DNA of 25,416 nucleotides from positions 1 through 25,416 of the IMG/VR virus record IMGVR_UViG_3300017971_000722. One strand, 5' to 3'. Shown piece by piece: positions 3,523 through 24,790 of the stretch; the stretch's first letter is position 1; the number at the start of each line of letters is the position of its first letter. The DNA is from a virus. Made by a program: the position numbers and the translations under genes. Below the pieces are notes generated by a model. That model saw nothing but the letters and a program-made list of their open reading frames with translations, ran no database searches and was not told the DNA's origin.

Positions 3523-3726
3523 ATGTTGATTAAAACGGAAAAGGACAGCGGCAGAGAAGTATATGTGAATGTGTTGGGGATGAACTATGCTGAGAAGAAA
3601 CCTAACGGTACATGGCAGCTATCATTCCCCGACAGCCACTCCATTATAGTGGCAGAGAGGTTTGGCGAGGAGCTGAAAGACGCTGTTAATATCTTAAAAA
3701 TCCACTACAGGGAGAAGAATAGATGA
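3523..3726 (+). CDS. Small hypothetical protein (67 aa)
   Basis: A strong ribosome binding site (AAGGAG at about 3510) precedes the ATG at normal spacing. The 67-residue product is soluble and mixed alpha/beta, with a YAEKKPNGTWQLSF strand pair and an amphipathic C-terminal helix. No motif identifies it. Its stop overlaps the start of the aldo/keto reductase gene as ATGA, so it belongs to the same translational unit. Function unknown. Confidence 0.65.
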   Translation: MLIKTEKDSGREVYVNVLGMNYAEKKPNGTWQLSFPDSHSIIVAERFGEELKDAVNILKIHYREKNR

Positions 3727-4517
3727 AGCTCTGCTTAGGCACAGTGCAGTTAGGCTGTGGAACCTACGGAATAAATAGAAATGTAGAAGATCAACATACT
3801 GCTCTCAACATGTACAGAGCAGCCAGGGACTGCGGCGTGGAGTACTTTGACTGTAGTTTTGAATATGGCGATTCTTTAGAAAGACTGCTCTATGCCATAG
3901 GCAAAACCGGCTCTTATAGCGAACCAAAACTAATAGTGAAGCTAAATCCCAATGATGGAGTTAGACAGGTAGAAGTGATGCAGTGGTTTAGAGATGGCCA
4001 TGATTGCCGGTGTCTCATGAGTCATGGCCCCACTGGAGCCAGCTTTAAAGATTTATGGGGCAGGTGGTGCGAGCGCCTGGGCTGCTCTGTCTACTCGCCG
4101 CAAGAAGCACAGGCGGTGAGTGAGTGGGCTGACGTAGTGCAGCTACCTTACAATGTATTGGATCAAAGACTGAAGGATTATCCAGACATCAACTACGAAC
4201 CTATGCTACGCAGCATATTTCTACAAGGACTGTTGTTGATGAAAGATATACCACCTTGGGCAGATCGCTACGTTGCTCCTGTGCAGCGTAAGGCTGCTGA
4301 GTATGGCATCTCCACTATGGAGTTGTGCTTGTGGTTTGTGGAGAGCACTTTCCCAAATACCTTAGTGAGCTTTGGTGCTGACAGTCCCAGACAGATTGAA
4401 GAGGTAGCAGAGGTAGCTAAGAAAGCAGAGAAGAAAGTACATGAGCTAGGGTTTCCTTACTTTGCCTATGGCTTGCAGTGTGATGAGCTGCGGGTAATAG
4501 ATCCGAGGTTTTGGTAA
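3723..4517 (+). CDS. Aldo/keto reductase family oxidoreductase
   Basis: The 264-residue product begins with the family signature LGTVQLGCGTYGINR. It keeps the whole catalytic tetrad: D43 and Y48 in FDCSFEYGD, K73 in LIVKLNP, and H101 in LMSHGP. The family uses NADPH to reduce carbonyls or, in sugar pathways, to oxidise or reduce sugar intermediates. The protein is shorter than typical (about 300), but the terminal SFGADSPRQIEE motif, where the cofactor phosphate binds, is present. It overlaps the next gene by one base (TAATG). In bacteria, reductases of this type often sit beside SpsF/NeuA-type cytidylyltransferases in surface-glycan clusters. The same pairing here suggests a role in nucleotide-sugar synthesis, and the substrate cannot be read from the sequence. 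Confidence 0.85.
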   Translation: MKLCLGTVQLGCGTYGINRNVEDQHTALNMYRAARDCGVEYFDCSFEYGDSLERLLYAIGKTGSYSEPKLIVKLNPNDGVRQVEVMQWFRDGHDCRCLMSHGPTGASFKDLWGRWCERLGCSVYSPQEAQAVSEWADVVQLPYNVLDQRLKDYPDINYEPMLRSIFLQGLLLMKDIPPWADRYVAPVQRKAAEYGISTMELCLWFVESTFPNTLVSFGADSPRQIEEVAEVAKKAEKKVHELGFPYFAYGLQCDELRVIDPRFW

Positions 4518-5203
4518 TGGGAAAAATAGTAGGAGTTGTACAGGCTAGAACAGGCAGCACTCGATTGCCTCGCAAGGTTCTGCTAGAAGTAGAAGGGTAT
4601 TCTGCGATAGAGCTGCTGTTTAGCAGAGTAAAGCAATCTGTGTTTGTAGATGAATGGTGGTTAGCTACTACAGAGTTAGATGAAGATGTGGTATTGTCTA
4701 TAGTAGCCAAGCTTTCTGGTCTTAAAGTATACAAAGGCAGTGAGGAGAATGTTCACAACCGCTTCTGTCAGATTGCCTACTTGTCGGAAGCTGATTACTT
4801 GGTGCGGATAACGGGAGACTGTCCTTTTATGGACCCAATGGTAATTGACTATGTAGTTTGCACCCCAGGAGAATGGGATTACTGCTCTAACATTAGACCT
4901 GTGCGCACTTTCCCTGATGGCTTGGATGTTGAAGTGTTCAGCAGAAGAAAGCTCTTCAGTACGGCCAATAGCTCTAGTCCAGAGGTGCAGGAGCACGTGA
5001 CACCTGGTATGTACAATGAGGCCGACAGCCATTGTGTTGAAAGCGTAGCTGACTTCTCCCACCTACGGTGGACTCTGGACTACCGGGAGGACTGGAATCT
5101 GATAAAAACCTGCTGGAAGTATTTTCTGCCTCGTAGAGATTTTAGCTGGCTGGAAGTGCTGGCATGGCAGACTAAATATTATCCTATGTCACTTTGGAGA
5201 TAG
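4517..5203 (+). CDS. SpsF-type cytidylyltransferase
   Basis: The 228-residue product matches the SpsF / CMP-sugar synthetase-like family of GT-A-fold nucleotidyltransferases. It has the nucleotide-binding loop QARTGSTRLPRK (residues 9-20) and GSEENVHNRF (74-83). It also has the metal-site motif RITGDCPFMDP (97-107), PDGLDVEVF (133-141) and the late EHVTPGMY and RWTLDYREDW motifs. Members activate an acidic sugar, such as a nonulosonate, with CTP for surface polysaccharide or flagellar glycans. The frame is open from a TTG at 4511, but the ATG at 4517 overlapping the upstream TAA is preferred, with GAGG nine bases before it. No NeuB-like synthase is present in the window, so any pathway is incomplete or uses host precursors. 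Confidence 0.85.
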   Translation: MGKIVGVVQARTGSTRLPRKVLLEVEGYSAIELLFSRVKQSVFVDEWWLATTELDEDVVLSIVAKLSGLKVYKGSEENVHNRFCQIAYLSEADYLVRITGDCPFMDPMVIDYVVCTPGEWDYCSNIRPVRTFPDGLDVEVFSRRKLFSTANSSSPEVQEHVTPGMYNEADSHCVESVADFSHLRWTLDYREDWNLIKTCWKYFLPRRDFSWLEVLAWQTKYYPMSLWR

Positions 5204-5207
5204 GGTA

Positions 5208-5663
5208 ATGGAAAAAGTTAGTGATAAAATAACTGCTTTGCAGGAAAAGTTCTCTTGGCTAGAAGGGTTTATTGCTGAGATTGTACAGAAAGAAATTCCT
5301 CCTAGACAGTGGCTCTATGAAAATGGATTTTTTAGAATAAAACTCAACTGGACTAGGTTTGACCATGTGACTCCTCTGGCTCAAGCTTTCCCCGGTTTTG
5401 GTCTTATAGAGATATATATGCGCAAGGTTGATAGGCATCCAAAAAGTCGTAGCAGAGAATCTGCTGAGGAGTTGTTGAAAGATATCATAGTACATGAGAT
5501 TAATGAGTATTTTGGGGTGGTAGATACTCCGCATGTTGCTTGGCGAGAAAACAAGGAAGCGCAAAGAGTAAAGGAGTTCTTAAATAGCAAGGGCATTTAT
5601 AGATCTGAAACTATAAATGGTGTTTTAAATTCTAAGTCAACTAAGGAGTCTAATGGAAGATAA
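5208..5663 (+). CDS. Hypothetical protein with a zincin-like HExxE segment
   Basis: The 151-residue product has no recognised family. Residues 92-109 read DIIVHEINEYFGVVDTPH, with H96, E97, E100 and H109. The helix followed by a histidine is reminiscent of small zincin-like phage proteins, but the canonical second histidine of HExxH is absent, being E100 here. It could be a degenerate or divergent metal-binding protein. The ATG at 5208 follows a GGAG about ten bases upstream and lies four bases after the cytidylyltransferase stop. The 3' end overlaps the next gene by 11 bases. Confidence 0.6.
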   Translation: MEKVSDKITALQEKFSWLEGFIAEIVQKEIPPRQWLYENGFFRIKLNWTRFDHVTPLAQAFPGFGLIEIYMRKVDRHPKSRSRESAEELLKDIIVHEINEYFGVVDTPHVAWRENKEAQRVKEFLNSKGIYRSETINGVLNSKSTKESNGR

Positions 5664-6483
5664 AATGATAAAACGTATTTTGTCTATTATGGCAGTGGTG
5701 TCTATTGTCATCGTTCTGCTGTGGGATGCGCACCAGCGCTCCCCGCTTACTAGGGCCACTAGCATAGTGTACCGAATGGCCAACAAGCTGGAGGACTTCC
5801 GACAAACTGGGGACTTTGAGGGGTTGTTTTTTGATGTAGAAGCTAACAAGCACATTGTTGGGCTGAGTGGAAAGTTCTACGGCTATGTGCAGTGGACGCA
5901 GATAGTAAGCAAAAAGAAACATTTTTGGGAAGCAGCTGAGATAGAAATCAACGGGGTTAAACAATACAACTACTGGAATCAGTACTGCTATGTGCTCGCA
6001 CAGATGTTGGACAATTACTTCAAGGCTGCTGGTATTACGTCTGTAATTCTTATTATAAAGGCTGACAGAATTGGTGCTCCGCTACTGCCTGTCGGCTACC
6101 CGGCTGAGGCTTGTAAGGAGAAGGGCTACTGCGGCTTTTGGTCCTATCATATGGTCAATGCAGTAGTGACAAACAGTGGTGATTCTTATGTATATGATTT
6201 GAGTTGGAATAATGTTGGTCCTATGTTGCTGGGTGAATATTTGCAGAAAAGATTTCGGAATCCAAGACATACTCTTCATCTGTGTGAGGTAAATAATGTG
6301 AGACAATTAGAGCAGTTTTTGGTACCAGTGAAAGGTGGTGAACCATACTATGGAACATTTTTGGAGTGGGAAGTTTTTAGCCAAGTGCAAGGGCCAGAAG
6401 TACATGACGGTATACTGCCAGGCGATAGAACAGTATATAAAGAATCAGGAATTACCGGATTGGATTTTCCTACACCCTTCTGA
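5653..6483 (+). CDS. Exported transglutaminase-like cysteine protein
   Basis: An N-terminal hydrophobic helix (residues 8-24, after MIKR) anchors or exports the 276-residue protein. The soluble part contains a plausible transglutaminase/papain-like triad. C112 lies in [15 protein letters not shown] at the start of a helix that ends in an AAGI turn. H166 lies in [11 protein letters not shown], and D182 in YVYDLSW. Order, spacing and surrounding strands match the family, whose members act as peptidases, amidases or crosslinking enzymes. An outward-facing enzyme acting on peptidoglycan or surface proteins is plausible. The ATG at 5653 is chosen for the AAGGAG four bases upstream; ATG 5665 is an alternative. 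The last 26 or more codons overlap the terminase frame, which is unusual. Confidence 0.65.
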
Positions 6484-8182
6484 TTACAGCCAGCCTCAAC
6501 GCTTTCAGCTCTTCTGTGGGATGCTGGAGAGCCTTGACCTCAAGAAGCGTCAAGATAAGGCTCACCCCAGGCTCCTCAAGTGCTTGCAGAAAAATGGCAT
6601 TAAGGACAAGGACATTCTCTGGTGGTACATTAAAGAGTTTTTAGGCTTCACCGTGCCTAGAGAATGTACCTGTCAGCTTCACAACCCTGAGTTCAACTCT
6701 TTAGATTTTCCTCACAAAGCTCCCTTTGACTATGTAGCGGATATGTTCTTTGAGAATGTAAGGAACAGTATTGCTTTCGCCAATAGGACTGGCGGCAAGA
6801 CTACCAACGTAGCTATTCTTAATCATCTGGATATGTTGTTTAAGAATGGTTGTGAGGTAGCTAGTGCCGGAGCTATCAAAGACCAAGCCAATAAGGTGTA
6901 CCGTTACTTTCAGTCCTTTCACAAACACCCAGAACTTAAAAAGGCATTGTCTAAAGATCCCACTAAGTCTATGACTATCTACAAGAACGACAGTATGCTG
7001 GAGGTTGTGACTGGCAGTATTAAGGGATTGAATTCTCCTCATCCTCAGAAAGCTCGTATTGATGAAGTGGAGCTGATGGACTGGGATGTATTACAGGAAG
7101 GTCTCAGCATGAGCGTTAGTAAAGATCTTCCTAATGGAGAAGTAATAAAGGGACAGAATACATTTTTGAGTACTCGTAAATATGACATCGGCACCTTCCA
7201 ACGGCTATTGTCGGAAGCTGAAGAAAGTGGAATGGATGTCTATTGTTGGTGTATATGGGAGGTGCTTGAAAAGTGCACAAGGCAGTGTAGAGATGATCCT
7301 AAGTACAGCAATTGTCCGATAGAGTATTTCTGTAAGGGATTGGCTCACAAGTGCTCTGGATACTACAAAGTGGGAGACTTTATTGATAAGGCTAGGACTT
7401 TGAGTAAAGATGTACTAGAGGCACAGTGGCTCAACAAAAAACCATCTCAGGAAGCTCTTGTGTATGGGGGCTATTGGAACAGAGAAGTCCACATGGGGCT
7501 GAAGCCAGACTTTAAACCTACTGGACCTAATGTGATGGTTGTTGGTAGTATTGACTTTGGCAGCAGTCCTGGCCATCCTTTTGTCTACCAGAAGTCCTAT
7601 GTTGACTACAGTGACATATATAGAGCTTTGGATATTGCTGAGGATGAGCCTCTGGAAGGAAGATTCAAGATGCGTTTTTGGATCTTTTATGAATATCGCT
7701 CTTCTTCTGCTACTATGGAGCAGCATAGTGAGAAGATAAAAAATTCACCTCACTACCATCCTAATGAGATGATCTTTGCTGACCCTTCTGCTAAGCAAGC
7801 CCGTATAGATTTAGAAAATCTTTACGGTATAAATACCTACAATGCTGTAAATGCGCTGGAAGGGATTGACTTGGTGAGAGCCCATTTGCAGGTGTTCAAT
7901 GACTATGACACAGATGGTGAGCCTATTGCTTTTCTCTATTTGATTCCTGGCTACTTGGATACAGCTGATGATTTAATAGGCAGCGATGTGGAGTTTGAAC
8001 GCTATCGCTATCCGAGGGGTTTGGACGGAAAACCACAACGGTTTAAACCTCTACAGGTTGATGATCATGGGATGGACTGTATTCGTTACATTATACAGAG
8101 TTGCTATGAGCCAGAGGTGATAACGCGCTTCGCCATACCACCTCAAGAGATAATAGAGAGTGGAGGATATTGGTTCTCGTAA
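6404..8182 (+). CDS. terL: Terminase large subunit
   Basis: This is the DNA-packaging motor and headful nuclease. Numbering from the ATG at 6404 (592 aa), the ATPase has a deviant Walker A (NRTGGKT, 127-133) and Walker B RIDEVE (218-223). The RNase H-like nuclease carries D384 in [11 protein letters not shown]460 in FADPSAKQ and D553, D554 and D558 in DDHGMDC. Between them lies a cysteine-rich insert with seven Cys (281, 283, 291, 295, 304, 310, 317), probably a metal-binding knuckle. The frame is open from a GTG at 6335 and also has an ATG at 6350. The 6404 start is preferred because it overlaps the upstream gene least and has AAGGG ten bases before it. No small terminase gene is obvious nearby. 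Confidence 0.93.
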
Positions 8183-8249: not shown

Positions 8250-9713
8250 ATGTTCGATAACTACAGATTGAAGAAGCAGCTACAGAGAGAACAGTTAGAG
8301 TATGAAATCTCTCAGTACAAAGCTGCTAATAGTATAATGTCTGGAATAGAAGCAAGGTATGCTCGTCCTGACCCTGATGAGCATCTCTGGCTACAACTTG
8401 GTGAGAGTGGTGATGGTAAATACGCTGCTGCTCTCTCAGAAGAAGACCACTACGAGATGCTGGACCAGGCATGGAAGATGTTCAAGACTAACCTGTTTGC
8501 TAGAGCCATTGTTAGGAATCTCGGCAAGTTCATCCTTGGTAAAGGTCCTATTGTAAAGCCAGTCTCTGACAACCAACTCATAAAAGACAAGTGGAAAGAG
8601 TTCACCTATCTCAACAAGTGGTCTCTCAGAGAGAAGGAGATAGTAAGAAGAGTGTTCAGAGATGGAGAGGTGTTTCTTAGGAAATTCATAGACCAACAGA
8701 CAGGCGACACAAAGCTACGTTTTCTAAGAGCGCAGATGATAAGGAATCCTAAAAATGATAAAGACGTAAACAAAGCTGAAGATGTGAGTTTTGGCATAGG
8801 CACTAATAATGACGATGTAGAGGAGCCACTTACCTATTACTACTGCAAGATGAACGACTCTACTCTTATTGAGAAAATACCTGCTTCAGAAGTTATCCAC
8901 ATTAAAATCCTTACAGACAGCGATATGAAACGAGGAATGAGCTTTCTGCTTATTGCTATGCGGATGCTGACTAAGTATGACAGCTGGATGGAGGACAGGA
9001 TATCTCTGAACCAAGCACGTTCTGCTATAGCTCTAGTCCGTAAGGTTGAAGGCACAGGCAGTGCTGTAGAGAGTATAAGGGATGCATATCGGGCTGAGCA
9101 TAAGGATGCTGATAAACACAAACAAAAAGCCTTTCAACGGGGCACCGTATTGACGGCTTCAAAAGGGATCAGCTATGAAATGCTCAGCCCGAATATTCAG
9201 GCTTCCGATGTGAAAGACGACGGCAGGAACATGCTGTTAGCTATTGCTGCTGGTTGTGGCTTTCCGGAGATGATGCTCACCAGCGACTACAGCAATGCTA
9301 ATTACTCAAGCTCTATGGTAGCGCAGAATCCTTTTGTGAGAGAGATAGAGGATTGGCAGGACTTCTTTACTCATTACTATAAGAACGAGATATTCATTCC
9401 TGTCATGAAAGCCTATCAGGAGTATGGTGATAAGAAGATTCCTGATAAAGAAGATTTGGACTGCACGATAGAATGGCCCCCACTCATATTGGCTGATATT
9501 TATAAGAACAATCAGGCCAGAGAGATACAGCACCGCAACAAGATCATCTCTAAGAAGACTTGGCAGGAAAGGGAAGGACTGGACTCTGATGAGGAAGAAA
9601 GGAACATGGAAGACGAGCAAGGTAAGGATATATATTCGAATCCCTTTAACATGCCTGTATCGCCTGTGAATCAGTATTCGCAATTTGGAGATAGTGAAGA
9701 TGAATCTATGTGA
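8250..9713 (+). CDS. Portal protein
   Basis: The 487-residue protein is of normal portal length and sits directly after the terminase, as expected. Recognisable segments are NLFARAIVRNLGKFILG near residue 80 and the region GMSFLLIAMRMLTKYDSW around 230, which is typical of lambda/SPP1-type portals. The stem and crown helices follow, and the C-terminus is acidic and disordered (EERNMEDEQGKD onward). The portal forms the dodecameric ring at one capsid vertex through which terminase pumps DNA and to which the tail attaches. TGGAG lies ten bases before the ATG. The 3' end overlaps the homing endonuclease gene by 14 bases. Confidence 0.88.
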   Translation: MFDNYRLKKQLQREQLEYEISQYKAANSIMSGIEARYARPDPDEHLWLQLGESGDGKYAAALSEEDHYEMLDQAWKMFKTNLFARAIVRNLGKFILGKGPIVKPVSDNQLIKDKWKEFTYLNKWSLREKEIVRRVFRDGEVFLRKFIDQQTGDTKLRFLRAQMIRNPKNDKDVNKAEDVSFGIGTNNDDVEEPLTYYYCKMNDSTLIEKIPASEVIHIKILTDSDMKRGMSFLLIAMRMLTKYDSWMEDRISLNQARSAIALVRKVEGTGSAVESIRDAYRAEHKDADKHKQKAFQRGTVLTASKGISYEMLSPNIQASDVKDDGRNMLLAIAAGCGFPEMMLTSDYSNANYSSSMVAQNPFVREIEDWQDFFTHYYKNEIFIPVMKAYQEYGDKKIPDKEDLDCTIEWPPLILADIYKNNQAREIQHRNKIISKKTWQEREGLDSDEEERNMEDEQGKDIYSNPFNMPVSPVNQYSQFGDSEDESM

Positions 9714-10659
9714 GTGTGGATGTGGTGAAGGGTGTAAGAATAGATTTGTAAATGGTCACAATCGGAGAGGCAAGAAACAATCTAACCACCAGAGAGAAAC
9801 AGTTAGTCTGATGATGCTGAATAATAATCCTACTAAAGATCCTAAAGTGAGAGAAAAAATTCGGCAAGCTCATCTAGGGAAAACTTTATCAGAAGAGCAT
9901 AAGTTGAAATTAAGAGATCTTCATTTAGGAGATAAAAATCACTTCTATGGTAAGAAGCATTCTTTAGGATCTAGACAAAAAATGTCAGCTTCTTTAAAAG
10001 GTAGGAAGATGTCTGATGAAGCAAAGGAAAATATGAGAGCTTCTGCTAAGCGAGGAGATGACAATCCATCTAGAAGGCTAGATGTTAAAGCTAAGATAAG
10101 TACTAAAATGAAAGGAAGAACATTTTCCGATATAACTAGAAAGAAGATGAGTGAAAGAGCTAAAGGTAGGAAGCCCTCTGAAGAGACTAAAGCAAAGATT
10201 CAGGCTACTAGATTATATGGTGATGATAATCCTGCTAGGAGACCAGAGATTAGAAAGTTAATTAGTGAGAAGAACAAAGGAAGAGAAGTTTCTGAACAGA
10301 CTAGAGTTAATATGAGTATTGTTTCACTATTACGATTTCAAGACAAAACTAAACATCCTAGATGGAAGGGAGGAGCTTCTAAAGATCCCTATTGCTCTGT
10401 CTGGAAGAATAAAGAGTATAAAAGAGATCTTATGGAGAGGGATGGATTTGAATGTAAGAATCCGGATTGCTGGAATACAACAGAACGTTTGACATTGCAT
10501 CACATAGATTATGATAAGGAGAATTGCCATCCTAGTAATCTAATAACTATCTGTGGAAGCTGTAATGCTAGGGCTAACTCGAATAGAGATTATTGGAGGG
10601 AGATATACTCTTCTATTGATGGGATAAAAGAGGATGGCGCGGCAGTAATCTGTGGCTAG
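9700..10659 (+). CDS. Free-standing HNH homing endonuclease (NUMOD3-type)
   Basis: The 319-residue product starts with a cysteine-rich segment (CECGCGEGC). It then has a series of basic helix repeats of the NUMOD3 kind (about 50-200), such as GKTLSEEHKLKL, GRKMSDEAKENM and GRKPSEETKAKI, which grip DNA. An HNH nuclease follows (about 245-295): ERDGFECKNPDC, LHHIDYD and NLITICGSCNARAN. The third catalytic-motif position is Asn rather than His, giving an HNN variant known to be active in relatives. The frame is open from a TTG at 9685, but the ATG at 9700 has GGAG nine bases upstream and is preferred. It sits between portal and phosphoesterase as a mobile insertion that does not interrupt either gene. 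Confidence 0.9.
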   Translation: MNLCECGCGEGCKNRFVNGHNRRGKKQSNHQRETVSLMMLNNNPTKDPKVREKIRQAHLGKTLSEEHKLKLRDLHLGDKNHFYGKKHSLGSRQKMSASLKGRKMSDEAKENMRASAKRGDDNPSRRLDVKAKISTKMKGRTFSDITRKKMSERAKGRKPSEETKAKIQATRLYGDDNPARRPEIRKLISEKNKGREVSEQTRVNMSIVSLLRFQDKTKHPRWKGGASKDPYCSVWKNKEYKRDLMERDGFECKNPDCWNTTERLTLHHIDYDKENCHPSNLITICGSCNARANSNRDYWREIYSSIDGIKEDGAAVICG

Positions 10660-10668
10660 GAGGGTATT

Positions 10669-11997
10669 TTGGCTGCAAAGATTGAGACAGAGAGTTTACT
10701 CAAGCACCTTGTTGACCTAATTAAAAAACACGGAGAAGGGCTATCGCTAAGGAGATTTGAAGCTCTTAGCAAAGGCAAGTACAGCGAGAGACCTTATGTT
10801 ACTCGTTGGGGAAGTTGGTTGGCGGCAAAGGAGGCTGCTATTAAATATGCTAATAATAACGATATTGAGATAGCAAAAAACAAAGGCAAGAAAGAGGAAG
10901 TATTAGACTTAGACAATCCTGTAGAGCATGAAAATGCACTACTCCGCAAAGAGATAGACCACCTAAGACAGCAAATAACCTACCTGAAGAAAGAACGCGT
11001 ATCTGAGGAGGAAATAAAGAAATATCTATTTGACTTAAAAGACTTGGAGCCGGAGATCCCTAATTGGACTGTTGATTTGACCGAAGATACAGTAATAGGT
11101 GTTCCATGCCTCCAGCTATCAGATTGGCATTTTAATGAGATAGTATTCCCAGAGCAAGTATTTGGTAAGAATGAATATAATATTACTATCGCAAAAACAA
11201 GAGTAAGGAATCTTGCTAGGGCTACTATTGATCTTTTAAAGAGCCATTTAGGTGGGGATTATCCTGGCATTGTTGTTCTCCTCAATGGAGATTTCCTTAG
11301 TGGAGATATCCATGAGGACTTAACCTCTACCAATGACAAGCCTATAATGCCTGCTTTCTTGGATGTCTTTAATGTTCTCTCTTGGTTCCTGGAGACGATG
11401 CTTTCTGAGTTCAATAAGGTGATGGTGTTTGGTTGTGTTGGCAACCATCCCCGTACTACAGATAAAATACCAGCTAAGAATAAAACGTACACCAATTACG
11501 ATTGGTTGTTGTACCGGCTGGTGGAGAAGTGGTTTGAGGAGAAGGATGGGATAAATTTTTATATTTCTGATGGGGATGATTTACAGTTCAAGATCTACCA
11601 TCACCGCTACCGCATGACTCATGGTGATCAGTTCAGAGGTGGTACAGGTTTTATAGGTCCTTATGCTCCTATTACTAGAGGAGAGATAAGGAAGAGGGCT
11701 GCTGCTGAGACTCTGAACATCAACTATGATACGCTGGTGATAGGTCACTTTCACCAGCTCATGGTGTTGGACAGGGTGATTGTAAATGGCAGCTTGGTTG
11801 GATACGATGAGCTGGGAGTGAAGTCTAACTTTCCTTATCAAGATCCCAAACAAGCTCTTTGGATAACTCATCCTAGGAGAGGCATTACCATCAGCGCTCC
11901 TGTATTCTGTGACCGCAAGATGGTACAGAAGTATAGGGCTGATGGCAAGTGGGTGTCGTGGATGCCTACAGATGGAACTAACAAAGAAAAAAGCTAA
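10669..11997 (+). CDS. Calcineurin-like metallophosphoesterase with HNH-repeat-like N-terminus
   Basis: The start is a TTG at 10669 with AGGAGG five bases before it, giving 442 residues. Residues 145-400 carry all metallophosphoesterase motifs: D152 and H154 in SDWHFNE, G207-D208 in LNGDF, GNHPR at 258-262, H318 in MTHGDQF, and GHFH at 359-362. These bind two metals and hydrolyse phosphodiesters or phosphomonoesters. The N-terminal 60 residues (SLRRFEALSKGKYSE to TRWGSWLAAKEAA) resemble the small helical repeat associated with HNH homing endonucleases. A coiled coil follows at about 86-115. A DNA-binding front on a nuclease-like phosphoesterase fits a DNA-processing role. The gene follows the homing endonuclease closely, and its own function in the head module is not known. 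Confidence 0.85.
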   Translation: MAAKIETESLLKHLVDLIKKHGEGLSLRRFEALSKGKYSERPYVTRWGSWLAAKEAAIKYANNNDIEIAKNKGKKEEVLDLDNPVEHENALLRKEIDHLRQQITYLKKERVSEEEIKKYLFDLKDLEPEIPNWTVDLTEDTVIGVPCLQLSDWHFNEIVFPEQVFGKNEYNITIAKTRVRNLARATIDLLKSHLGGDYPGIVVLLNGDFLSGDIHEDLTSTNDKPIMPAFLDVFNVLSWFLETMLSEFNKVMVFGCVGNHPRTTDKIPAKNKTYTNYDWLLYRLVEKWFEEKDGINFYISDGDDLQFKIYHHRYRMTHGDQFRGGTGFIGPYAPITRGEIRKRAAAETLNINYDTLVIGHFHQLMVLDRVIVNGSLVGYDELGVKSNFPYQDPKQALWITHPRRGITISAPVFCDRKMVQKYRADGKWVSWMPTDGTNKEKS

Positions 11998-13606: not shown

Positions 13607-13918
13607 ATGACTGCTGTAGCAAATAGCTTTTATGAAGATCATACTGGGATGATTTGGTATATTGATGATTCTGGCAACATAAGTCCCTCAATTGAATCTG
13701 GCTCTACTTGGTGTGACACTACTAATGGTGACTACAAGATTTATGATGGTACTGAATGGAAGAAGTATGAATGGAAAGAGGCTGAAGAGGAAGAAGATAA
13801 ACTCTCAAAATTGAAGCTCGACTGGTATGATAGATTCAATAAAAAAATAAAAAAGAAAATAGAAAAACCTACAGAAGAAGAACAGCTTGAGATAGGCGGC
13901 CGATTCCTTGATATATAA
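13607..13918 (+). CDS. Hypothetical protein (103 aa)
   Basis: No family was recognised. A strong ribosome binding site (TAAGGAGAG) precedes the ATG. The N-terminal half is strand-rich and contains SGNISPSIESG and NGDYKIYDGTEW. The C-terminal half is a highly charged Lys/Glu helix (about 57-95). The TTG start of the next gene lies inside its last codons. It has the look of a small virion or assembly accessory, but nothing supports a specific role. Confidence 0.6.
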   Translation: MTAVANSFYEDHTGMIWYIDDSGNISPSIESGSTWCDTTNGDYKIYDGTEWKKYEWKEAEEEEDKLSKLKLDWYDRFNKKIKKKIEKPTEEEQLEIGGRFLDI

Positions 13919-14216
13919 AACCTGCACCCATCCTGAACACAAAGGTAGGAGGAATATACCTCTTACCTATTTTTCTAAGCATCCTAAGACTAAAGATGGC
14001 CGACAGTCTATTTGCAAGGAATGCAACAGGAGAGCTGCTAGAGAGAGAGTCAGAAGGTTACAGAAAGAAAAAAAGAAGATAAAACCAAGGCAGGATTACA
14101 AGGAGCCTCTGGAAGAACTGGATTATCATGAGCTGAAGGAGGACTTGGACTATAAGGAGCCTTGGAACAGTAGAACTCTATTGAAGGATCTTAGTATAGA
14201 CGAGAATGGCAGTTGA
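13908..14216 (+). CDS. Small zinc-finger protein (102 aa)
   Basis: The frame starts with a TTG at 13908, preceded by AGGCGG eight bases upstream; no other start is available nearby. Residues 4-46 form a zinc-binding unit: C6 with H8 or H11, then C36 and C39 in SICKECNRR. Between them is the YFSKHPKTKDGRQ turn. This pattern is common at the N-termini of phage endonuclease VII-like proteins and small recombination-associated zinc fingers. Here the domain is followed only by a basic stretch and a Glu/Leu/Tyr repeat tail (YKEPLEELDY, LDYKEPWN). DNA or RNA binding is likely. It overlaps both neighbours by 11 bases. Confidence 0.6.
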   Translation: MIYKTCTHPEHKGRRNIPLTYFSKHPKTKDGRQSICKECNRRAARERVRRLQKEKKKIKPRQDYKEPLEELDYHELKEDLDYKEPWNSRTLLKDLSIDENGS

Positions 14217-16704
14217 AAGTGTAAATGAAGCATTAATGAACTTCCTCCTTAAGAGGAGTCACTACATTCAGAGGTATGAGAATGGTACTATTACTGAAGT
14301 GATGGCTCCTTACCATAGGGCTAAACAACAGTTGGCTGAAAGTGTGATGAGGTTGGAAGACTATGGGACTGGTTACACTTTACAGTATCGTATTGACAGG
14401 CTGAATAGCCAAATGGCCGAAATAGATGCTGTACTCTCAACTGCTACTGCTGAGGGGATTAATAATTTGCAGGAGAATCTTTCCCACTTTGCTTATGACC
14501 ACAAGGAAGTTTATGAGGACTTACTAGATACAAAGTTTGGCGAGATAGGGATTAATATTACTAGAATTCCATTTGAGCATGTAGACAGAATGCTTAGCAG
14601 TCCTTTAGGAATGCAGGGAGCTGATTGGCAAGCTAGGTTTGAGAATCGCTATGGTCAGCAGTTAGTGAGGATAAAGGAAGAGCTATCACAGAGTATGATT
14701 TTGGGGGAGGATATGGCTAAGGCTTCTCGTCGCTTGTGGGGACAAGGAGCCTTAATGACCGGCACAGTTGGTAGGAGCTTACAAGATACAGCAAAAGTGA
14801 TAACTAGAACTGAGATAATGAGAACTCAGAATATAGTTAACAAGGCTATATATGATGAGAATATAGATGTAATAAAAGGACTAGAATTTTGTGCTGTTTT
14901 GGATGATAGAACTTGTATAGTTTGTGGAAGTCGTGATGGAAAGATCTACTATTATAACCAAAATCCTCCAGGACCATTTGATACGCCTCCTCTTCATCCT
15001 CTTTGCAGATGTGTATTCTGTCCCCTAACTAAGTCTTGGAGGGAGCTTGGTGTAAATGCTGATGAAGTTCCCCAAGGTACTAGAGCTGCTTTTGATGGTC
15101 AAGTACCAGCTAGTCTTAGTTATGATCAATGGCTAAGAGCGATGGATGCTGCTGATCCAGATTTTGTTAAAGACATACTTGGTAAGAGATACAAATACTG
15201 GCAGACAGGACAGTTATCTTTAAAGAAGATGGTATCAGACAACAGAATAATTCCATTAGAGGAGCTAAAGAAAATAACAAAAGAGAAACTGCTAAAAAAA
15301 GGATTGCCTCTGGTGGCAGCCGAAATGCCAACCTGGAAAATCGCCGACCTGATTAATGATATAACGCTTGGCGATTTCCTAAAGGCGGTACGGAATGGAG
15401 AAACAAGCAAAGTGTCTTCTTACTTCGATGATATCATCAGCCACCAACCACTCTCCGTAGTCCAGCACAACCTGAATGATGTGAACGTAATGCGCTACAT
15501 GTATGAGCGAGGTATGAGCACTAATCAGATGCATGGTTTCTTGGGTGATTACAGCAAAATGTCTAGAGCTAAGTTGTATAAAGGTGGTATACCTGTCCAA
15601 CCAACAGCTCCTGAGTTACAAGCTAAAATGACAGCTCGCCAGATTGCTGCCAGAAAAAACAAATGGATTAAAACAAAACAGCATCACAGTATAGCCGATA
15701 ACACAGAGCTGGAGATTGCTGATGGTCTTGGAGCAGACCATGTAATAGGCAACACTCCCTTTGATGTCTTTCTCAATAATGAGTTTATAGAAGTGAAGAC
15801 TATGCTGAATAATACAAGTGGTCTCAAAGGACAGATCTCTATGCATGTAGAGGCTATCCCTCGCAAGCGTGCTTTTGTGAAGAAATACGGAGTGAGAGGC
15901 CACACGGTAGCTATAGACAAGACGCCTGGTAGTGAGACATTCGGTAAGATATTCTACAGGGAAGGTTTCAAGAAGTATAGACTGGAAAACATGATAGAAG
16001 TCAAAGACTATGATCACCTAAAACAATTGCTGAAAAAAGGAGCTAAGGAGCCACCCACAATAGCATCTGTAAAGGCGAAGGTACCGAAGCTGAACACATT
16101 GAAGAAGAACGAGAACTGGGCTAAAAAGAACCTACGTCTTGTTGAGGCTGACTACGACGAGCTGGACAATGATGTTGCTAACTTATTTAACAGCTACTTG
16201 AAGGGAGCGGCTGATGAGTTACAAGTGAAGCCTGTAGCTGTGAGGTTTGACGAGAGGCTGTTTTTAGGCAAGAATGCTAACGTAACAGCTCTATCTTTTG
16301 AAGATGGTACACTGGCTTTCAATCCTAAGTTCTTTCAACATATGGATGATTTGAAGTTGTTCATGAAAGAGCAGAATGACATAGGACAGTTTGTGACTGC
16401 CAGCCGAGGCCATGTGTTCAGACATGAACTTGGGCACTTGCGCTACTTCCAGATGGGCGGCACTGAGGCTACCGCTACTCGTAAGCTATCCAAGAAACAT
16501 TTGGGGATGCTGAGCAAGGATGTGGGCAAGTCCAATATGCCTCGTTACTTGAGTAAGTATTCTCTGAAGAATGAAGGAGAATTCTACGCTGAGATGATGT
16601 CTCGTAAACTTGCTGGTGAACGGCTGCATCCTGTCACCATCAGGATACTGAATAACATAGAGAAAAGTATTAAGAAGTTAAAAGTGAAGAAGAGAAGAAA
16701 ATAA
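14206..16704 (+). CDS. MuF minor head protein fused to nuclease-like and zincin domains
   Basis: At 832 residues this is about twice the length of a plain MuF/SPP1 gp7-type head protein. The MuF part is residues 1-280. It ends in the TRTEIMR motif and a cysteine cluster: C229, C237 and C240, then H264, C267, C269 and C272 in LHPLCRCVFC. Residues 500-570 resemble a PD-(D/E)XK nuclease: D520, then E529 and K531 in FIEVKTM, within a PFDVFLNN-EFIEV layout. Residues 735-800 carry a zincin motif, HELGH (740-744), with E792 or E796 as third ligand. Virion MuF proteins with toxin-like tails are known. The middle region (15290-15500) has more C-rich codons than its surroundings, suggesting acquisition. 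No separate virion role for the C-terminal domains can be shown here. Confidence 0.8.
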   Translation: MAVESVNEALMNFLLKRSHYIQRYENGTITEVMAPYHRAKQQLAESVMRLEDYGTGYTLQYRIDRLNSQMAEIDAVLSTATAEGINNLQENLSHFAYDHKEVYEDLLDTKFGEIGINITRIPFEHVDRMLSSPLGMQGADWQARFENRYGQQLVRIKEELSQSMILGEDMAKASRRLWGQGALMTGTVGRSLQDTAKVITRTEIMRTQNIVNKAIYDENIDVIKGLEFCAVLDDRTCIVCGSRDGKIYYYNQNPPGPFDTPPLHPLCRCVFCPLTKSWRELGVNADEVPQGTRAAFDGQVPASLSYDQWLRAMDAADPDFVKDILGKRYKYWQTGQLSLKKMVSDNRIIPLEELKKITKEKLLKKGLPLVAAEMPTWKIADLINDITLGDFLKAVRNGETSKVSSYFDDIISHQPLSVVQHNLNDVNVMRYMYERGMSTNQMHGFLGDYSKMSRAKLYKGGIPVQPTAPELQAKMTARQIAARKNKWIKTKQHHSIADNTELEIADGLGADHVIGNTPFDVFLNNEFIEVKTMLNNTSGLKGQISMHVEAIPRKRAFVKKYGVRGHTVAIDKTPGSETFGKIFYREGFKKYRLENMIEVKDYDHLKQLLKKGAKEPPTIASVKAKVPKLNTLKKNENWAKKNLRLVEADYDELDNDVANLFNSYLKGAADELQVKPVAVRFDERLFLGKNANVTALSFEDGTLAFNPKFFQHMDDLKLFMKEQNDIGQFVTASRGHVFRHELGHLRYFQMGGTEATATRKLSKKHLGMLSKDVGKSNMPRYLSKYSLKNEGEFYAEMMSRKLAGERLHPVTIRILNNIEKSIKKLKVKKRRK

Positions 16705-16869
16705 ATGCTCACAATACTCCAATGCGGAAAGTGTAAATACAAATTAGAGTGGGTCATAACTGACGACCTAGAAGACTCCTACTACAAGTGTCAAAAATAC
16801 CCAAACAAGATTCCTACCTATGTAGAGGAAGCTACTGAGGAGTGTCCTAAATTTGAAGAGAAAGGATAA
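16705..16869 (+). CDS. Small zinc-ribbon protein (54 aa)
   Basis: The ATG lies immediately after the MuF stop (TAAATG), and the TAA ends five bases before the sulfotransferase start. The product has two cysteine pairs or halves: C7 and C10 in QCGKCKY, C29 in YYKCQKY and C48 in EECPKF. This is a rubredoxin- or zinc-ribbon-like arrangement with a loose second knuckle. Size and acidity suggest a small metal-binding partner. Its position directly after an effector-like gene is where a cognate immunity or chaperone gene would be expected, but nothing in the sequence tests that. Confidence 0.6.
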   Translation: MLTILQCGKCKYKLEWVITDDLEDSYYKCQKYPNKIPTYVEEATEECPKFEEKG

Positions 16870-16874
16870 GGAGA

Positions 16875-17624
16875 GTGGTTGATACAGCAAGTTTTGTCTT
16901 TAACAGCGAGGAAGCAGCAAAGCAGTTTAACAAGGCTGTTGACTTTATAAAATGGCATGGTGGTAAGTGCTATAGGATTACAAATAGCACTATGGCTGTA
17001 GGGCTGAAGAACACTAATGTTAAGTTTAACCTGAGGCCGAAGCTGTTTGCGGAGGAGAAGGTATTTGGTATTGGCTTTGGTAGAACTGGCACTATGAGTC
17101 TGGCAGATGCTATGAGCATACTAGGATATAAGAGCAGAAAACAGAGACCAATAACCATGAATGATGTGGCTGATTATGACTTCATTGGTACTCTTCCTAA
17201 TTTAGAAAGTATTAAGATTTTCAATTCTCTAACCATTAATGCTAAGTTTATAATGACTGTTAGAGAGATGGAGTCCTGGATAGAATCCTGTAAAAAGACA
17301 TTAGGAGCTAGAGTCTCTGAAAAGGCTAAGAACCTGGTAGTGGGTTTGTATAAGGAAGAGGACTATTGGCAGTATTGGTCTCATGTACAGTGGGATGAAG
17401 AGCTGTATAGACAAGCGATGGTCAAATACACAGAGCTAGTTCGAAAGTATTTCAAAGAAGAGCCAGAAAAACTATTAATCTTAGATATTAGTAAAGGTGA
17501 GGGTTGGGAAAAGCTCTGTCCTTTTCTCGGCAAGGAGATACCGGAGGAGTCTTTCCCATGGCGACACCAGGGAGTGCTTGGAGTTGATGCTGTTAATGGT
17601 GATGATGAATTAGCAGGAGAGTAA
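16875..17624 (+). CDS. Sulfotransferase-like protein
   Basis: The 249-residue product has the PAPS-binding P-loop VFGIGFGRTGTMSL (residues 63-76). The ILGYKS turn follows. The family's FIMTVREMESW motif is also present, where the Arg and following residues contact the 3' phosphate. Such enzymes transfer sulfate from PAPS to sugars, lipids or amino acids. The N-terminal 60 residues are unlike the family and may be a small separate domain. The start is a GTG at 16875 only one base after AAGGAG, which is closer than usual, so an unannounced downstream start is possible. It is followed after two bases by a cyclodeaminase-family gene, so the two probably act in one pathway. Confidence 0.75.
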   Translation: MVDTASFVFNSEEAAKQFNKAVDFIKWHGGKCYRITNSTMAVGLKNTNVKFNLRPKLFAEEKVFGIGFGRTGTMSLADAMSILGYKSRKQRPITMNDVADYDFIGTLPNLESIKIFNSLTINAKFIMTVREMESWIESCKKTLGARVSEKAKNLVVGLYKEEDYWQYWSHVQWDEELYRQAMVKYTELVRKYFKEEPEKLLILDISKGEGWEKLCPFLGKEIPEESFPWRHQGVLGVDAVNGDDELAGE

Positions 17625-17626
17625 AG

Positions 17627-18637
17627 ATGACCAGAAAGATAGAAGGGTTGAGGGAAGCTTTCATACTAACAGAGCCGGAGATAGAAGGGATTTTAAATAG
17701 AGTAGGATGGAAGGAGATAATTAATAGGGTCGCAGAAACTTTTGTTGAAGAGGCTAATAGTAATACAGTATCACCGCCTAAGACTATTATAGAAGTAGAT
17801 AAGTACAAGAATGACTACAGAGTGATGCCTAGTTATATGCTGAAGTATCCAGACTTTATTGGCACCAAAATAGTCTCTGCTTGTACTTACAATCCAGAGT
17901 ACGGATTTCCTTTGGCTATGGGGACTTATATCTTAAATAAAACCAGATTTCAGATTCCTGTTCTGTTATTTGATGCGAATATAACAACTGCTTACAGAAC
18001 GGCAGCTGCTAGTGCGGTGGCTGCTAGAGAGTTGGCTGCTGATCCGAAAGAGCCCAGAGTTTTGGGACTGGTTGGGTGTGGGCAACAATCCTATTATCAC
18101 ATTCCAGCCATCTATTCTGTGTGTGAGAACATAGAAACAGTACTTATCAACGACAAGAGCAAAGAGGCAGAGGAAAAGCTAGAGGATCATTTCAAGGACC
18201 TCTATGATATGTGCGCTGTGAAGAAAACAGATGTACTGCTTGGGGCAGATATCGTGGTGACTCTTACTCCTACTAAACAGCCACACATGTTTCCAAATAA
18301 TTTGGACAGGGCTTACAGAAAGCAAGTCATCATAGCTGCTGGAGGGGACAGTGAGAGCAAAATGGAGTGGGCTTCGCAGATTTTCACTACCGTCGATCCT
18401 TACTGTGATAGCCTTGCGCAGGTCTCTCACACTGGTACTGTATGTAGTGCTATTGGGCTTGGATATATACGTTTAGAGGACATAAACTCCCTAGGAGATC
18501 TGATGGTAGGGAAGAAGGAAATGAGCTTCGGTAAAAATAAGAAGATGTTTTTTAGTACTGGTGTTGCTTTACAGGATTTAGCCATGGCTATACTACTGTA
18601 TCAGGAACTAGAAAAAGGTGATCCCATAGGAGGATAA
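17627..18637 (+). CDS. Ornithine cyclodeaminase / mu-crystallin family protein
   Basis: The 336-residue product matches the family throughout. YRVMPSYM (64-71) and K81 in GTKIVSA fit the substrate pocket. RTAAASAVAARELA (124-137) follows. A Rossmann NAD loop, GLVGCGQQ, lies at 147-154, D241 in AAGGDSESKME, and the C-terminal STGVALQDLAMA is present. Members convert ornithine to proline with loss of ammonia, or make other imino and amino acids such as diaminopropionate precursors (SbnB type). Which one applies here is not readable. CAGGAG before the ATG gives a good start. Coupling with the sulfotransferase-like gene and the glycan enzymes at 3723-5203 suggests a shared decoration or metabolite pathway. 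Confidence 0.85.
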   Translation: MTRKIEGLREAFILTEPEIEGILNRVGWKEIINRVAETFVEEANSNTVSPPKTIIEVDKYKNDYRVMPSYMLKYPDFIGTKIVSACTYNPEYGFPLAMGTYILNKTRFQIPVLLFDANITTAYRTAAASAVAARELAADPKEPRVLGLVGCGQQSYYHIPAIYSVCENIETVLINDKSKEAEEKLEDHFKDLYDMCAVKKTDVLLGADIVVTLTPTKQPHMFPNNLDRAYRKQVIIAAGGDSESKMEWASQIFTTVDPYCDSLAQVSHTGTVCSAIGLGYIRLEDINSLGDLMVGKKEMSFGKNKKMFFSTGVALQDLAMAILLYQELEKGDPIGG

Positions 18638-18638
18638 A

Positions 18639-18905
18639 ATGAATTACCTGTCTGATATGGAGGGCTACCTTGGTGATTTCGGCAGTAACAGCACTAGGAA
18701 ATTTTTTGAAGAGACTGCAGAGAGACACAAACTTATCCATCTCAGCTCGTTCCTTTCCAGGGGAGAGTCAATAGATCTTGCAGCAATCATTGCAGAGGTG
18801 CGAGGCGTCGAATGGCCGAAGATAGATGGTATGAGTGAGGCTGCTGGTAATTTGGTTGAAGCTCTACAGAAGGTTAGGGGCGGGATAGTGTTTATAGAAG
18901 ATTGA
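18639..18905 (+). CDS. Small hypothetical protein (88 aa)
   Basis: The ATG at 18639 is one base after the preceding stop, with AGGAGG at 18628 supplying a strong ribosome binding site. The product is helical and soluble, with KFFEETAERHKLIHLSSFL and SIDLAAIIAEVRG as helices. It has no cysteine, signal or catalytic motif. It is likely the third gene of the sulfotransferase/cyclodeaminase unit. Function unknown. Confidence 0.65.
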   Translation: MNYLSDMEGYLGDFGSNSTRKFFEETAERHKLIHLSSFLSRGESIDLAAIIAEVRGVEWPKIDGMSEAAGNLVEALQKVRGGIVFIED

Positions 18906-18906
18906 C

Positions 18907-18936
18907 TTTAAAAATTAGTGCAGGAGTTAATATAAT
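18907..18936 (+). promoter_or_regulatory. TTTAAA-N18-TATAAT element
   Basis: TTTAAA (18907-18912) and TATAAT (18931-18936) are 18 bases apart, identical in layout to the elements at 8184 and 19991. The sequence lies in the short gap between two genes. If it is a promoter, transcription would begin around 18943, almost on the following ATG. This is awkward and leaves other roles open. Confidence 0.4.
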
Positions 18937-18940
18937 TACT

Positions 18941-19414
18941 ATGATGAAATACATAATGAGCATAGTGCTTATTTTTGGTTTTTGTCTTTTCTCTTCTATT
19001 GGGTTTCAGGCAGAGCGTCATGATTCCAGAACTTTTTGTATTGAAGCTCCGAAAAGCTGGAGTATACCTCATCTGTCCTGTATTCAGGTGCCGACTAGAT
19101 ATTTTTATGAGATTCGCTCTTTGCCTTTAATATGCGTGGAGAAGGTGTTTTATAATAATGGTAGTTTCACTGGGTTGCGCAGGTTAGTATTGTTGAATAT
19201 CAGATCAAATACTTCTGTGGCTTGGAATGTTTACTATGAGGAAGACAATACGGTGTTTTTAATCTCCAGAGGTCGCAGGAGTCCTAAGATGTTGGACAGA
19301 GATGGAGATGGTCTTTTTGATACTGATCATTATTGGAAGCAGAGCAGAGGAGAGTTGATGAGTCTGACTAGTAAAGAAGTGCAGTTATTGATGAGAGATA
19401 GAGATGCCAGTTAG
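18941..19414 (+). CDS. Secreted protein with calcium-loop motif (157 aa)
   Basis: Starts are possible at ATG 18941 or 18944; an in-frame TTG at 18902 would place a non-secretory stretch before the signal and is rejected. Residues 4-22 form a Sec-type hydrophobic segment ending near SSIGFQA. The mature part is strand-rich, with four cysteines or fewer and no enzyme motif. Near the C-terminus lies DRDGDGLFD (119-127), a calcium-binding loop like that of the secreted protein at 13196, followed by HYWKQSRGEL. The two may be distant relatives or share only the loop. A CAGGAG lies 14 bases before the ATG, a long spacing. Confidence 0.6.
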   Translation: MMKYIMSIVLIFGFCLFSSIGFQAERHDSRTFCIEAPKSWSIPHLSCIQVPTRYFYEIRSLPLICVEKVFYNNGSFTGLRRLVLLNIRSNTSVAWNVYYEEDNTVFLISRGRRSPKMLDRDGDGLFDTDHYWKQSRGELMSLTSKEVQLLMRDRDAS

Positions 19415-20003
19415 CACCTACAAAGACTCGAAGGGCTGCTATGCACAATGGGGAGGCTCAGGGGCTAAATATTACTATCCCTGTGGGAATACTGCTGCTA
19501 TGAACAAAGCAAAGCAGAAAGCCCATATACAAGGTGTAGCTGCTAAGGGGGCTGGCTATAAAGGCGAAGGAAATATGACCGCCATGGAGATAGCCTTTAA
19601 GAAAACTATGAGAGAGAAGCAGAAAGAGCTGAAGACAAAGAATTGGACAGAAGCAGACTATCATGCTCATGATACTTGGTTTCATATCACAGAGGAAGAG
19701 AAAGCTAATAGAAATAAGTCTGGTGGTAGTAATGTAGGGAAGTATAAGGGAGTGAAAAGCTTCTGTGGTCCTAGTGGCGGAGCACCTGCTGGTACTTTCC
19801 CAGTCAATACTAGAAAGCGGGCCATCGCTGCATTGGCCTATGCGCGCAATGCGCCAAAGCCAGAAGGCATTAAAGCTTGCGTGTGCAGAAAGTACCCCGA
19901 TTTAGATGCTTGTAAGAAAAAGAAGAAAGAAAGTTATGAAGGAGGATGGTATAGGACTTCTGGCGGTAAGTGGATGAAGAGTAAATCAATTTTAAAAAGG
20001 TAA
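19404..20003 (+). CDS. Head-module protein of unknown function (199 aa)
   Basis: Residues 10-45 contain the pattern CYAQWGGSGAKYYYPC and a KAKQKAHIQG helix, a short module often seen in phage genes near the prohead protease. Residues 118-165 hold FCGPSGGAPAGTFPVN, then TRKRAIAALAYARNA and CVCRKYP, another recurring phage motif. Both are recognised from memory of structural-module proteins of unknown role rather than from a named family. The tail is Lys-rich (KKKKKESYEGG onward). The gene overlaps the secreted gene before it by 11 bases, starting at an ATG with GAGATAGAG upstream. Confidence 0.65.
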   Translation: MPVSTYKDSKGCYAQWGGSGAKYYYPCGNTAAMNKAKQKAHIQGVAAKGAGYKGEGNMTAMEIAFKKTMREKQKELKTKNWTEADYHAHDTWFHITEEEKANRNKSGGSNVGKYKGVKSFCGPSGGAPAGTFPVNTRKRAIAALAYARNAPKPEGIKACVCRKYPDLDACKKKKKESYEGGWYRTSGGKWMKSKSILKR

Positions 20004-20020
20004 TAGGCAGATAATATAAT
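19991..20020 (+). promoter_or_regulatory. TTTAAA-N18-TATAAT element upstream of protease/scaffold
   Basis: TTTAAA (19991-19996, at the end of the preceding gene) and TATAAT (20015-20020) are again 18 bases apart. TATAAT is followed at once by TGGAG, the ribosome binding site of the protease gene, 6 bases before its ATG. Initiation at the usual distance would start inside or after that site. The element may therefore be a promoter with an unusual start, or a shared RNA signal. Confidence 0.4.
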
Positions 20021-20031
20021 TGGAGTAAAAG

Positions 20032-21458: not shown

Positions 21459-21986
21459 ATGGCTGGTGAAAATAGATACCTGAGAGGCGACATTAGAGAG
21501 TTGTATGCCCCTGTGCACGGTAGCACTGTTATAGAAAAGGGTGATTTTGTTGTTATCTGTAAACAAGCAACTTCTGTTACTCATAGTACGGTACAACTTG
21601 CTACAGCAGATCATTATGCTTATCCGATTAGTCTGTGTACAGGAACTACTCATACTCGGTTTGCCCAGCAATTTGCTGGTGTTGCCATGAAAGGCAGTAG
21701 AAGTGGAGTGACGGAAAATATCCCGATTGCTACAGCTGGTATATTCCGCTATCCTGCTAAAACAGCAGTGGCGGTGTATCCAGGATATGCCGTGAATGCT
21801 ACGACTTCTGCTGCAGAAGTTTTTTATGATCAAAAAGTCAACTACAAGACTGATGCAGGAAGTAGTGATCTTACCATCGGTTTTTGTATGGAATATGATA
21901 CCACAGGAACAAATATTGACTTTAACCTCATTACGAGGTTCTCTGGAGTCTCTTGGGGTGATATGTTCCTGATTGGTACGCAATAA
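21459..21986 (+). CDS. Small head protein, copy 1 (decoration or head-fibre-like)
   Basis: The 175-residue product sits between scaffold and capsid genes, where decoration proteins are usual. It is all-beta and repeats nothing internally. Diagnostic segments are APVHGSTVIEKGDFVVIC, FAGVAMKGSRSGVTENI, GIFRYPAKTAV and the end FNLITRFSGVSWGD. Its relative at 22007 is nearly identical over long stretches, and a third, more diverged relative lies at 22551. The family looks like the beta-sandwich decoration (DUF2190-like) group, but this assignment is tentative. GGAGGAAG lies a normal distance upstream of the ATG. Confidence 0.7.
   Translation: MAGENRYLRGDIRELYAPVHGSTVIEKGDFVVICKQATSVTHSTVQLATADHYAYPISLCTGTTHTRFAQQFAGVAMKGSRSGVTENIPIATAGIFRYPAKTAVAVYPGYAVNATTSAAEVFYDQKVNYKTDAGSSDLTIGFCMEYDTTGTNIDFNLITRFSGVSWGDMFLIGTQ
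21510..21553 (+). repeat. 44-base identical block shared with copy 2 (mate 22058-22101)
   Basis: The block at 21510-21553 is identical to 22058-22101 and covers the VHGSTVIEKGDFVV coding segment, including synonymous positions. The offset between copies is 548 bases, the same as for the other identical block. Confidence 0.85.
21883..21949 (+). repeat. 67-base identical block shared with copy 2 (mate 22431-22497)
   Basis: The block at 21883-21949 is identical to 22431-22497, also with a 548-base offset. It codes for the C-terminal CMEYDTTGTNIDF to RFSGV region. Identity at silent sites over 67 bases beside more diverged flanks suggests gene conversion or strong constraint. Confidence 0.85.
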
Positions 21987-22006
21987 TTCAGGAGGTACTC
22001 TAGGAA

Positions 22007-22534: not shown

Positions 22535-22550
22535 TTAGTAGGGACTTCTA

Positions 22551-24775: not shown

Positions 24776-24790
24776 TAGGAGGGTGATAAA

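Follow-up and report, generated by a model that had tools for sequence, protein, structure and literature searches.

Two adjacent genes on a virus fragment, one encoding an aldo/keto reductase (AKR) and the other an SpsF-type cytidylyltransferase, are best explained as a module that tailors and activates a nonulosonic acid (NulO, an acidic sugar of nine carbons) of the pseudaminic type, a reading to which we assign a probability of roughly 0.7. SpsF would couple its presumed sugar acid substrate to CMP, the form used by glycosyltransferases—a role well supported by family and context. The activity of the AKR is somewhat doubtful; its probable role is the redox half of a sugar modification, by analogy with the prophage protein EpaA most likely at C8, which would yield a variant sugar. 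This sugar might be placed on the host surface, where it would block later phages or change the serotype; alternatively, it might decorate a protein, perhaps one of the virion. Its skeleton would be supplied either by the host or by phage genes that lie outside the sequenced fragment.

The window analysed covers a linear virus record of 25,416 bp from end to end; the record, itself a fragment, encodes terminase, portal, head-morphogenesis and capsid genes. The features relevant here are:

3523–3726, plus strand: 67-amino-acid gene with no assigned function (no Pfam match above cut-off)
3723–4517, plus strand: AKR of 264 amino acids, compact form with a shortened beta4/alpha4 segment (PF00248)
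4515–4519, plus strand: TAATG stop/start overlap of AKR and SpsF (direct reading of the sequence)
4517–5203, plus strand: SpsF-type cytidylyltransferase of 228 amino acids, predicted to form a CMP-activated sugar acid (PF02348)
6335–8182, plus strand: terminase large subunit, a context gene outside the pair (phrog_9, phrog_5653; 58% identity to contig L141)

Direct reading confirmed the coordinates, frames and TAATG overlap given by the first-pass annotation. The AKR runs from an ATG at 3723 to a TAA stop at 4515–4517 and SpsF from an ATG at 4517 to its stop at 5203, one base being common to both, an arrangement which suggests coupled translation. At 3723–3726, ATGA joins the AKR start to the TGA stop of the 67-amino-acid gene, and the two are probably carried on one transcript; on the other side, the next gene begins 4 bases after SpsF. 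The pair lies upstream of the terminase, the distance from SpsF to the terminase start being 1.13 kb, in keeping with the earlier estimate of less than 1.2 kb, and this location suggests late expression. Candidate terminase starts are a GTG at 6335 and an ATG at 6350; a gene at 5653–6483 overlaps the start by ~134–149 bp in a different frame, and the true start may be later than called. The slightly higher G+C content of the pair (46–48%, versus 43–45% in the terminase, portal and capsid genes) does not mark a recent arrival. Several further features were observed in the record. A Sulfotransfer_4 protein (97.5 bits) is followed after 2 bp by an ornithine cyclodeaminase/alanine-dehydrogenase-like protein (160 bits) at 16875–18637, a second metabolic pair set between head genes. 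Directly after the portal, 9685–11997 holds a NUMOD3/HNH homing-endonuclease-like gene and then a 442-amino-acid protein that matches an HNH repeat weakly and whose sequence, by eye, resembles a metallophosphoesterase. The capsid gene is preceded by three related tandem-duplicate genes (21459–23087), of which the first has a weak match to phage cement, and followed by two related tandem-duplicate genes of 163 amino acids (24284–25282).

SpsF is intact and, in its AlphaFold2 model (pLDDT 93.7), of cytidylyltransferase fold. The protein matches PF02348 with 57.1 bits (cut-off 22.6) over the nucleotide-binding half, keeps every residue invariant among 20 aligned relatives and carries the QARxxSxRLPxK loop together with the TxDCP and TxDxxxD acidic motifs. 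It matches 6oew, a Leptospira cytidylyltransferase, over nearly its full length (E 7e-27), and 6oew is also the best PDB match of the model (TM 0.90), followed by KdsB (Kdo) and NeuA cytidylyltransferases. An NCBIfam search of SpsF gave no close model, the top matches being Kdo cytidylyltransferases far under their cut-offs; these matches lend some weight to the view that the substrate is a different acidic sugar (Kdo or legionaminic acid, for example). The SpsF of Bacillus subtilis, of the same cytidylyltransferase type, serves legionaminic rather than pseudaminic acid in the spore crust, with no AKR mentioned (PMC7439481). Further, a query of the phages collection with the window SpsF matched one protein only, the Kdo-type enzyme of a megaphage, and the 462-kb uncultured phage L002 (LR756500.1) carries KdsA-, KdsB- and KdsD-like genes in series with glycosyltransferase-like genes (named by eye), by these predictions a Kdo set in a huge phage. 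We nevertheless consider another acidic sugar unlikely, given that the 6oew match spans the whole of SpsF and that of KdsB only the N-terminal half, that the closest viral relatives neighbour an inverting-type PseB, and that the cellular clusters are those of pseB/pseC/pseG/pseI. In a tree built by a quick method, the window SpsF joins the SpsFs of a group of phage contigs typified by L010 (SH-aLRT 96), inside the side associated with aminotransferases and apart from most SpsFs associated with short-chain dehydrogenases (SDRs).

The AKR is divergent (~30% identity to relatives, long branch), and since its His segment is also shortened it may not be a working reductase. It scores 30.1 bits against PF00248 (cut-off 24). 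A profile of 27 relatives aligns to residues 1–79 and 114–264; the His segment in between (~residues 80–113) counts 34 residues versus ~56 family columns and does not align. The AlphaFold2 model, for which, as for SpsF, the alignment excluded plasmid-derived rows, has a mean pLDDT of 81.9, and its Foldseek matches are AKRs (TM 0.66–0.68). The claim that both proteins keep the expected catalytic residues thus stands for SpsF, and for the AKR extends to Asp43, Tyr48 and Lys73, which align with the family (Asp and Lys in 28 of 28 rows, Tyr in 27 of 28). For the catalytic His, the probable candidate is His101, in the motif LMSHGP, a choice made by eye because the segment is unaligned to the profile and has a pLDDT under 50; a MAFFT alignment places His93 in the catalytic His column, and this placement in the modelling alignment may have lowered the local pLDDT.

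A decaying remnant, with an inactive AKR whose beta4 His segment has been lost and with either SpsF alone or neither protein still at work, would explain the 22-residue shortfall, the low model confidence (below 50) at residues 79–109 and a Pfam match that covers residues 3–75 only. A shortening in the same segment also occurs in the AKR of the viral contig L065, where AKR and SpsF are 0.33 kb apart. We hold decay to be improbable, however, as both frames are open without a stop, the base composition is near that of the phage core genes, a Shine-Dalgarno-like sequence is present, the overlaps are exact, and the AKR gives a good alignment over its C-terminal half (83 bits), with the HGP motif at about the right place. 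In the AKR tree, the window protein sits on a long branch with no secure placement, and a clade with phage AKRs was not rejected (p-AU 0.45). Joint inheritance of AKR and SpsF from one phage source was considered and set aside: SpsF groups with the phage cassettes, and the AKR branch is too long to place.

Gene neighbourhoods show the pair to be associated with the pseudaminic acid (Pse) pathway in bacteria as well as in phages. An AKR alignment scan, covering 84,980 species with one genome apiece, retrieved 51 cellular loci, 39 of which hold at least two of pseB, pseC, pseG and neuB within ~7 kb. This fraction is biased upward by two features of the search: its alignment included AKRs taken from Pse loci, and the scan used one ten-residue motif, with confirmation against the window protein. 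(An eight-sequence AKR alignment was too diverse for scanning.) An spsF gene lies within 7 kb in 40 of the 51 loci and within 150 bp in 21. The first-pass annotation had called the pairing a hallmark of bacterial surface-sugar pathways; these counts support narrowing it, in bacteria, to the pathway of pseudaminic-type NulO. Typical clusters have the order pseB-pseC-AKR-(SDR or class III aminotransferase)-spsF-pseG-pseH-pseI (e.g., L091, L100 and L109), with the same AKR subfamily at or near the same SpsF family in the 40 spsF-bearing loci; they represent a larger cellular pathway, of which the window has two genes only. In a NulO cluster of Moritella/Vibrionaceae, a bifunctional SpsF-AKR gene follows pseC and is itself followed by a dehydrogenase gene (PMC7371886). 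A tight group of window-related AKRs (L129–L131, L133–L135, L138 and L140), mostly from Phenylobacterium/Caulobacteraceae with some from other alphaproteobacteria, was observed outside any Pse cluster.

The first-pass annotation also presented the pair as odd in a phage, a view that does not hold: an SpsF alignment scan of viral contigs found 142 viral relatives, several with an adjacent AKR, and a fused prophage counterpart, EpaA, has been published (PMC12053666). Alignment queries were needed, since neither SpsF nor the AKR gave a match when viral contigs were scanned with the single protein. Eighty relatives were kept and, together with L089, found by its AKR, make up the 81 loci examined, in which PseB occurs in 58, NeuB in 53, a class III aminotransferase in 50 and an AKR in 8; PseC calls among them may include other aminotransferases. 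Among the 48 whole viral records (47 found via SpsF and L089 via its AKR), NeuB is present in 35 and an AKR in 8. Contigs with both TerL and portal are phage, and some of the others may be misassigned host DNA. Separately, 25 of the 81 loci have a cytidylyltransferase fused to a class III aminotransferase, usually beside PseB (L014–L016, L019, L021, L024, L025, L028–L031 and others).

The AKR adjoins SpsF in at least seven other viral contigs (L010, L011, L012, L018, L020, L061 and L089). In L010, L011 and L012, the gene order is TerL, GNAT, a short NeuB, a small gene, PseB, AKR, SpsF, class III aminotransferase, a Maf/PseD-like protein, phosphatase and portal; L018 and L020 hold parts of such a cassette on shorter contigs. 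The L010 PseB scores 455 bits, above the equivalog cut-off of 407.75 for the inverting dehydratase, and a pseudaminic-type product is therefore expected. As in the window, the AKR lies directly 5′ of SpsF in these five contigs and in L089, and the L010 group further resembles it in having the nearest SpsF in the tree and a cassette near the terminase. In contrast to the window, these contigs also carry PseB, a NeuB-like protein, GNAT and, as far as the contig extends, a class III aminotransferase, and the L010 group belongs to a different phage lineage, with a P22-like portal.

The closest characterized counterpart is EpaA of Acinetobacter baumannii prophages, a fused CTP_transf_3 and Aldo_ket_red protein of 542 amino acids with the cytidylyltransferase first. 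As established by complementation and NMR, EpaA and the SDR EpaB convert host Pse5Ac7Ac, the precursor, which is supplied by the host genes psaA-F, to 8ePse5Ac7Ac, a prophage system that helps to change the host capsule sugar (PMC12053666). Prophages that change the capsule through other genes are also known (PMC13228068). The likeness to the window pair is one of domain description, both being phage-borne combinations of CTP_transf_3 and Aldo_ket_red; the epaA-epaB module also lacks a synthase, like the window contig, and EpaA serves a nonulosonic acid. Unlike EpaA, the window pair consists of two genes with the AKR first and a TAATG overlap, and an SDR reference search and Pfam scans found no EpaB-like SDR among the window ORFs. 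The pair would thus represent half of an EpaA/EpaB-type system but is not classed as EpaA itself, being unfused, in reverse order and here without EpaB; by this comparison it is a split version of a type of sugar-tailoring system already known from phages. A search of the phages collection for EpaA-like proteins with a related AKR gave partial matches only, below 32% identity.

A module for pseudaminic-type NulO has against it the divergence and short His segment of the AKR, the lack of a close NCBIfam model for SpsF and, like the missing EpaB-like SDR, further gaps in the gene content of the window. The search of the rest of the record proposed earlier found no NeuB-like synthase and no recognised glycosyltransferase in 25 kb; a class III aminotransferase is likewise absent from the window, and PseB, PseC, PseH, PseG and PseI are absent from the record, a fragment. 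The nearest relative, the 55.5-kb contig L141, is the sole terminase relative found (TerL 58% and portal 60% identical). In place of the AKR/SpsF pair, L141 has a gene resembling glycosyltransferases (family 2 by eye) immediately upstream of the terminase. Farther upstream, 17–30 kb from the terminase and on the same strand, L141/L143 carries NeuB (162 bits), PseB (394 bits, just under the 407.75 cut-off), a DegT aminotransferase that matches PseC, GNAT, a PseF-like cytidylyltransferase, GT4 and others; no AKR was found in L141/L143. The corresponding region is out of view in the window, which ends ~6.3 kb upstream of its terminase. Since the contig is a fragment and its nearest relative has a synthase, the earlier remark that the pair stands without a synthase is true of the 25.4-kb contig and does not extend to the phage. 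As a separate observation, the L141 head-morphogenesis gene (13799–20085) is broken by intein-like segments (by eye) with an HNH-like gene, whereas the window copy is uninterrupted.

Within the preferred reading of a tailoring and activation module, two versions differ in the origin of the precursor. In the first, which is conceivable at odds well below even, the phage has no synthase and modifies and re-activates host pseudaminic acid, altering a capsule, LPS or flagellar glycan. EpaA/EpaB, with a precursor supplied by host genes, sets the precedent, and the flanks of the window pair are free of pathway genes. However, the nearest relative has its synthase set in a region absent from the contig, and NeuB or a NeuB-like gene is also present wherever a viral record has an AKR near SpsF. 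In the second, which we rate slightly higher but still at less than even odds, the rest of a Pse-type pathway lies elsewhere in the phage and a Maf-type or other transferase would pass the sugar to a virion or host protein. The larger gene sets of L089, the L010 group and L143 argue for such self-sufficiency, as do a Maf/PseD-like gene in four phage contigs and the placement of the L010-group cassettes inside the packaging/head gene block, which makes late expression likely. Against it, no transferase was found in the window, and L143 uses a different cytidylyltransferase and lacks an AKR, so that its set need not occur in the window phage.

The identity of the partner enzyme leads to a more specific proposal. 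Among the 40 spsF-bearing cellular loci, an SDR occurs in 8 and a class III aminotransferase in 28, the two never together; the aminotransferase is thus found in 0 of 8 loci with an SDR versus 28 of 32 without (Fisher P = 6e-6, optimistic because some loci are near-duplicates; families called by phmmer with a handful of reference sequences). An 8-amino-3,5,7,8,9-pentadeoxynonulosonic acid is known from the LPS of Flexibacter maritimus (PMC3210612). On these two grounds, the AKR could oxidize C8 of pseudaminic acid in general, whether free or CMP-linked, with an SDR partner leading to the 8-epimer, as in EpaA/EpaB, and a class III aminotransferase partner to an 8-amino sugar. On this view, 8-amino-pseudaminic acid would be the product of the L010-group and window phages, which would link it to a virion or host protein. 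This is a speculative proposal that we think unlikely to hold, and a literature search meant to test the 8-amino product through the O-antigen gene cluster of Tenacibaculum yielded nothing useful.

The window pair adds an unfused, aminotransferase-type relative to the one characterized phage system that alters pseudaminic acid. More generally, NulO genes, often covering several pathway steps, are common in viral contigs and can occupy the packaging gene block. If the exchange of partner enzymes around a C8-oxidizing AKR is real, it would supply genes with which the making of 8-amino nonulosonic acids can be tested, and a route by which phages may alter capsule or virion sugars.
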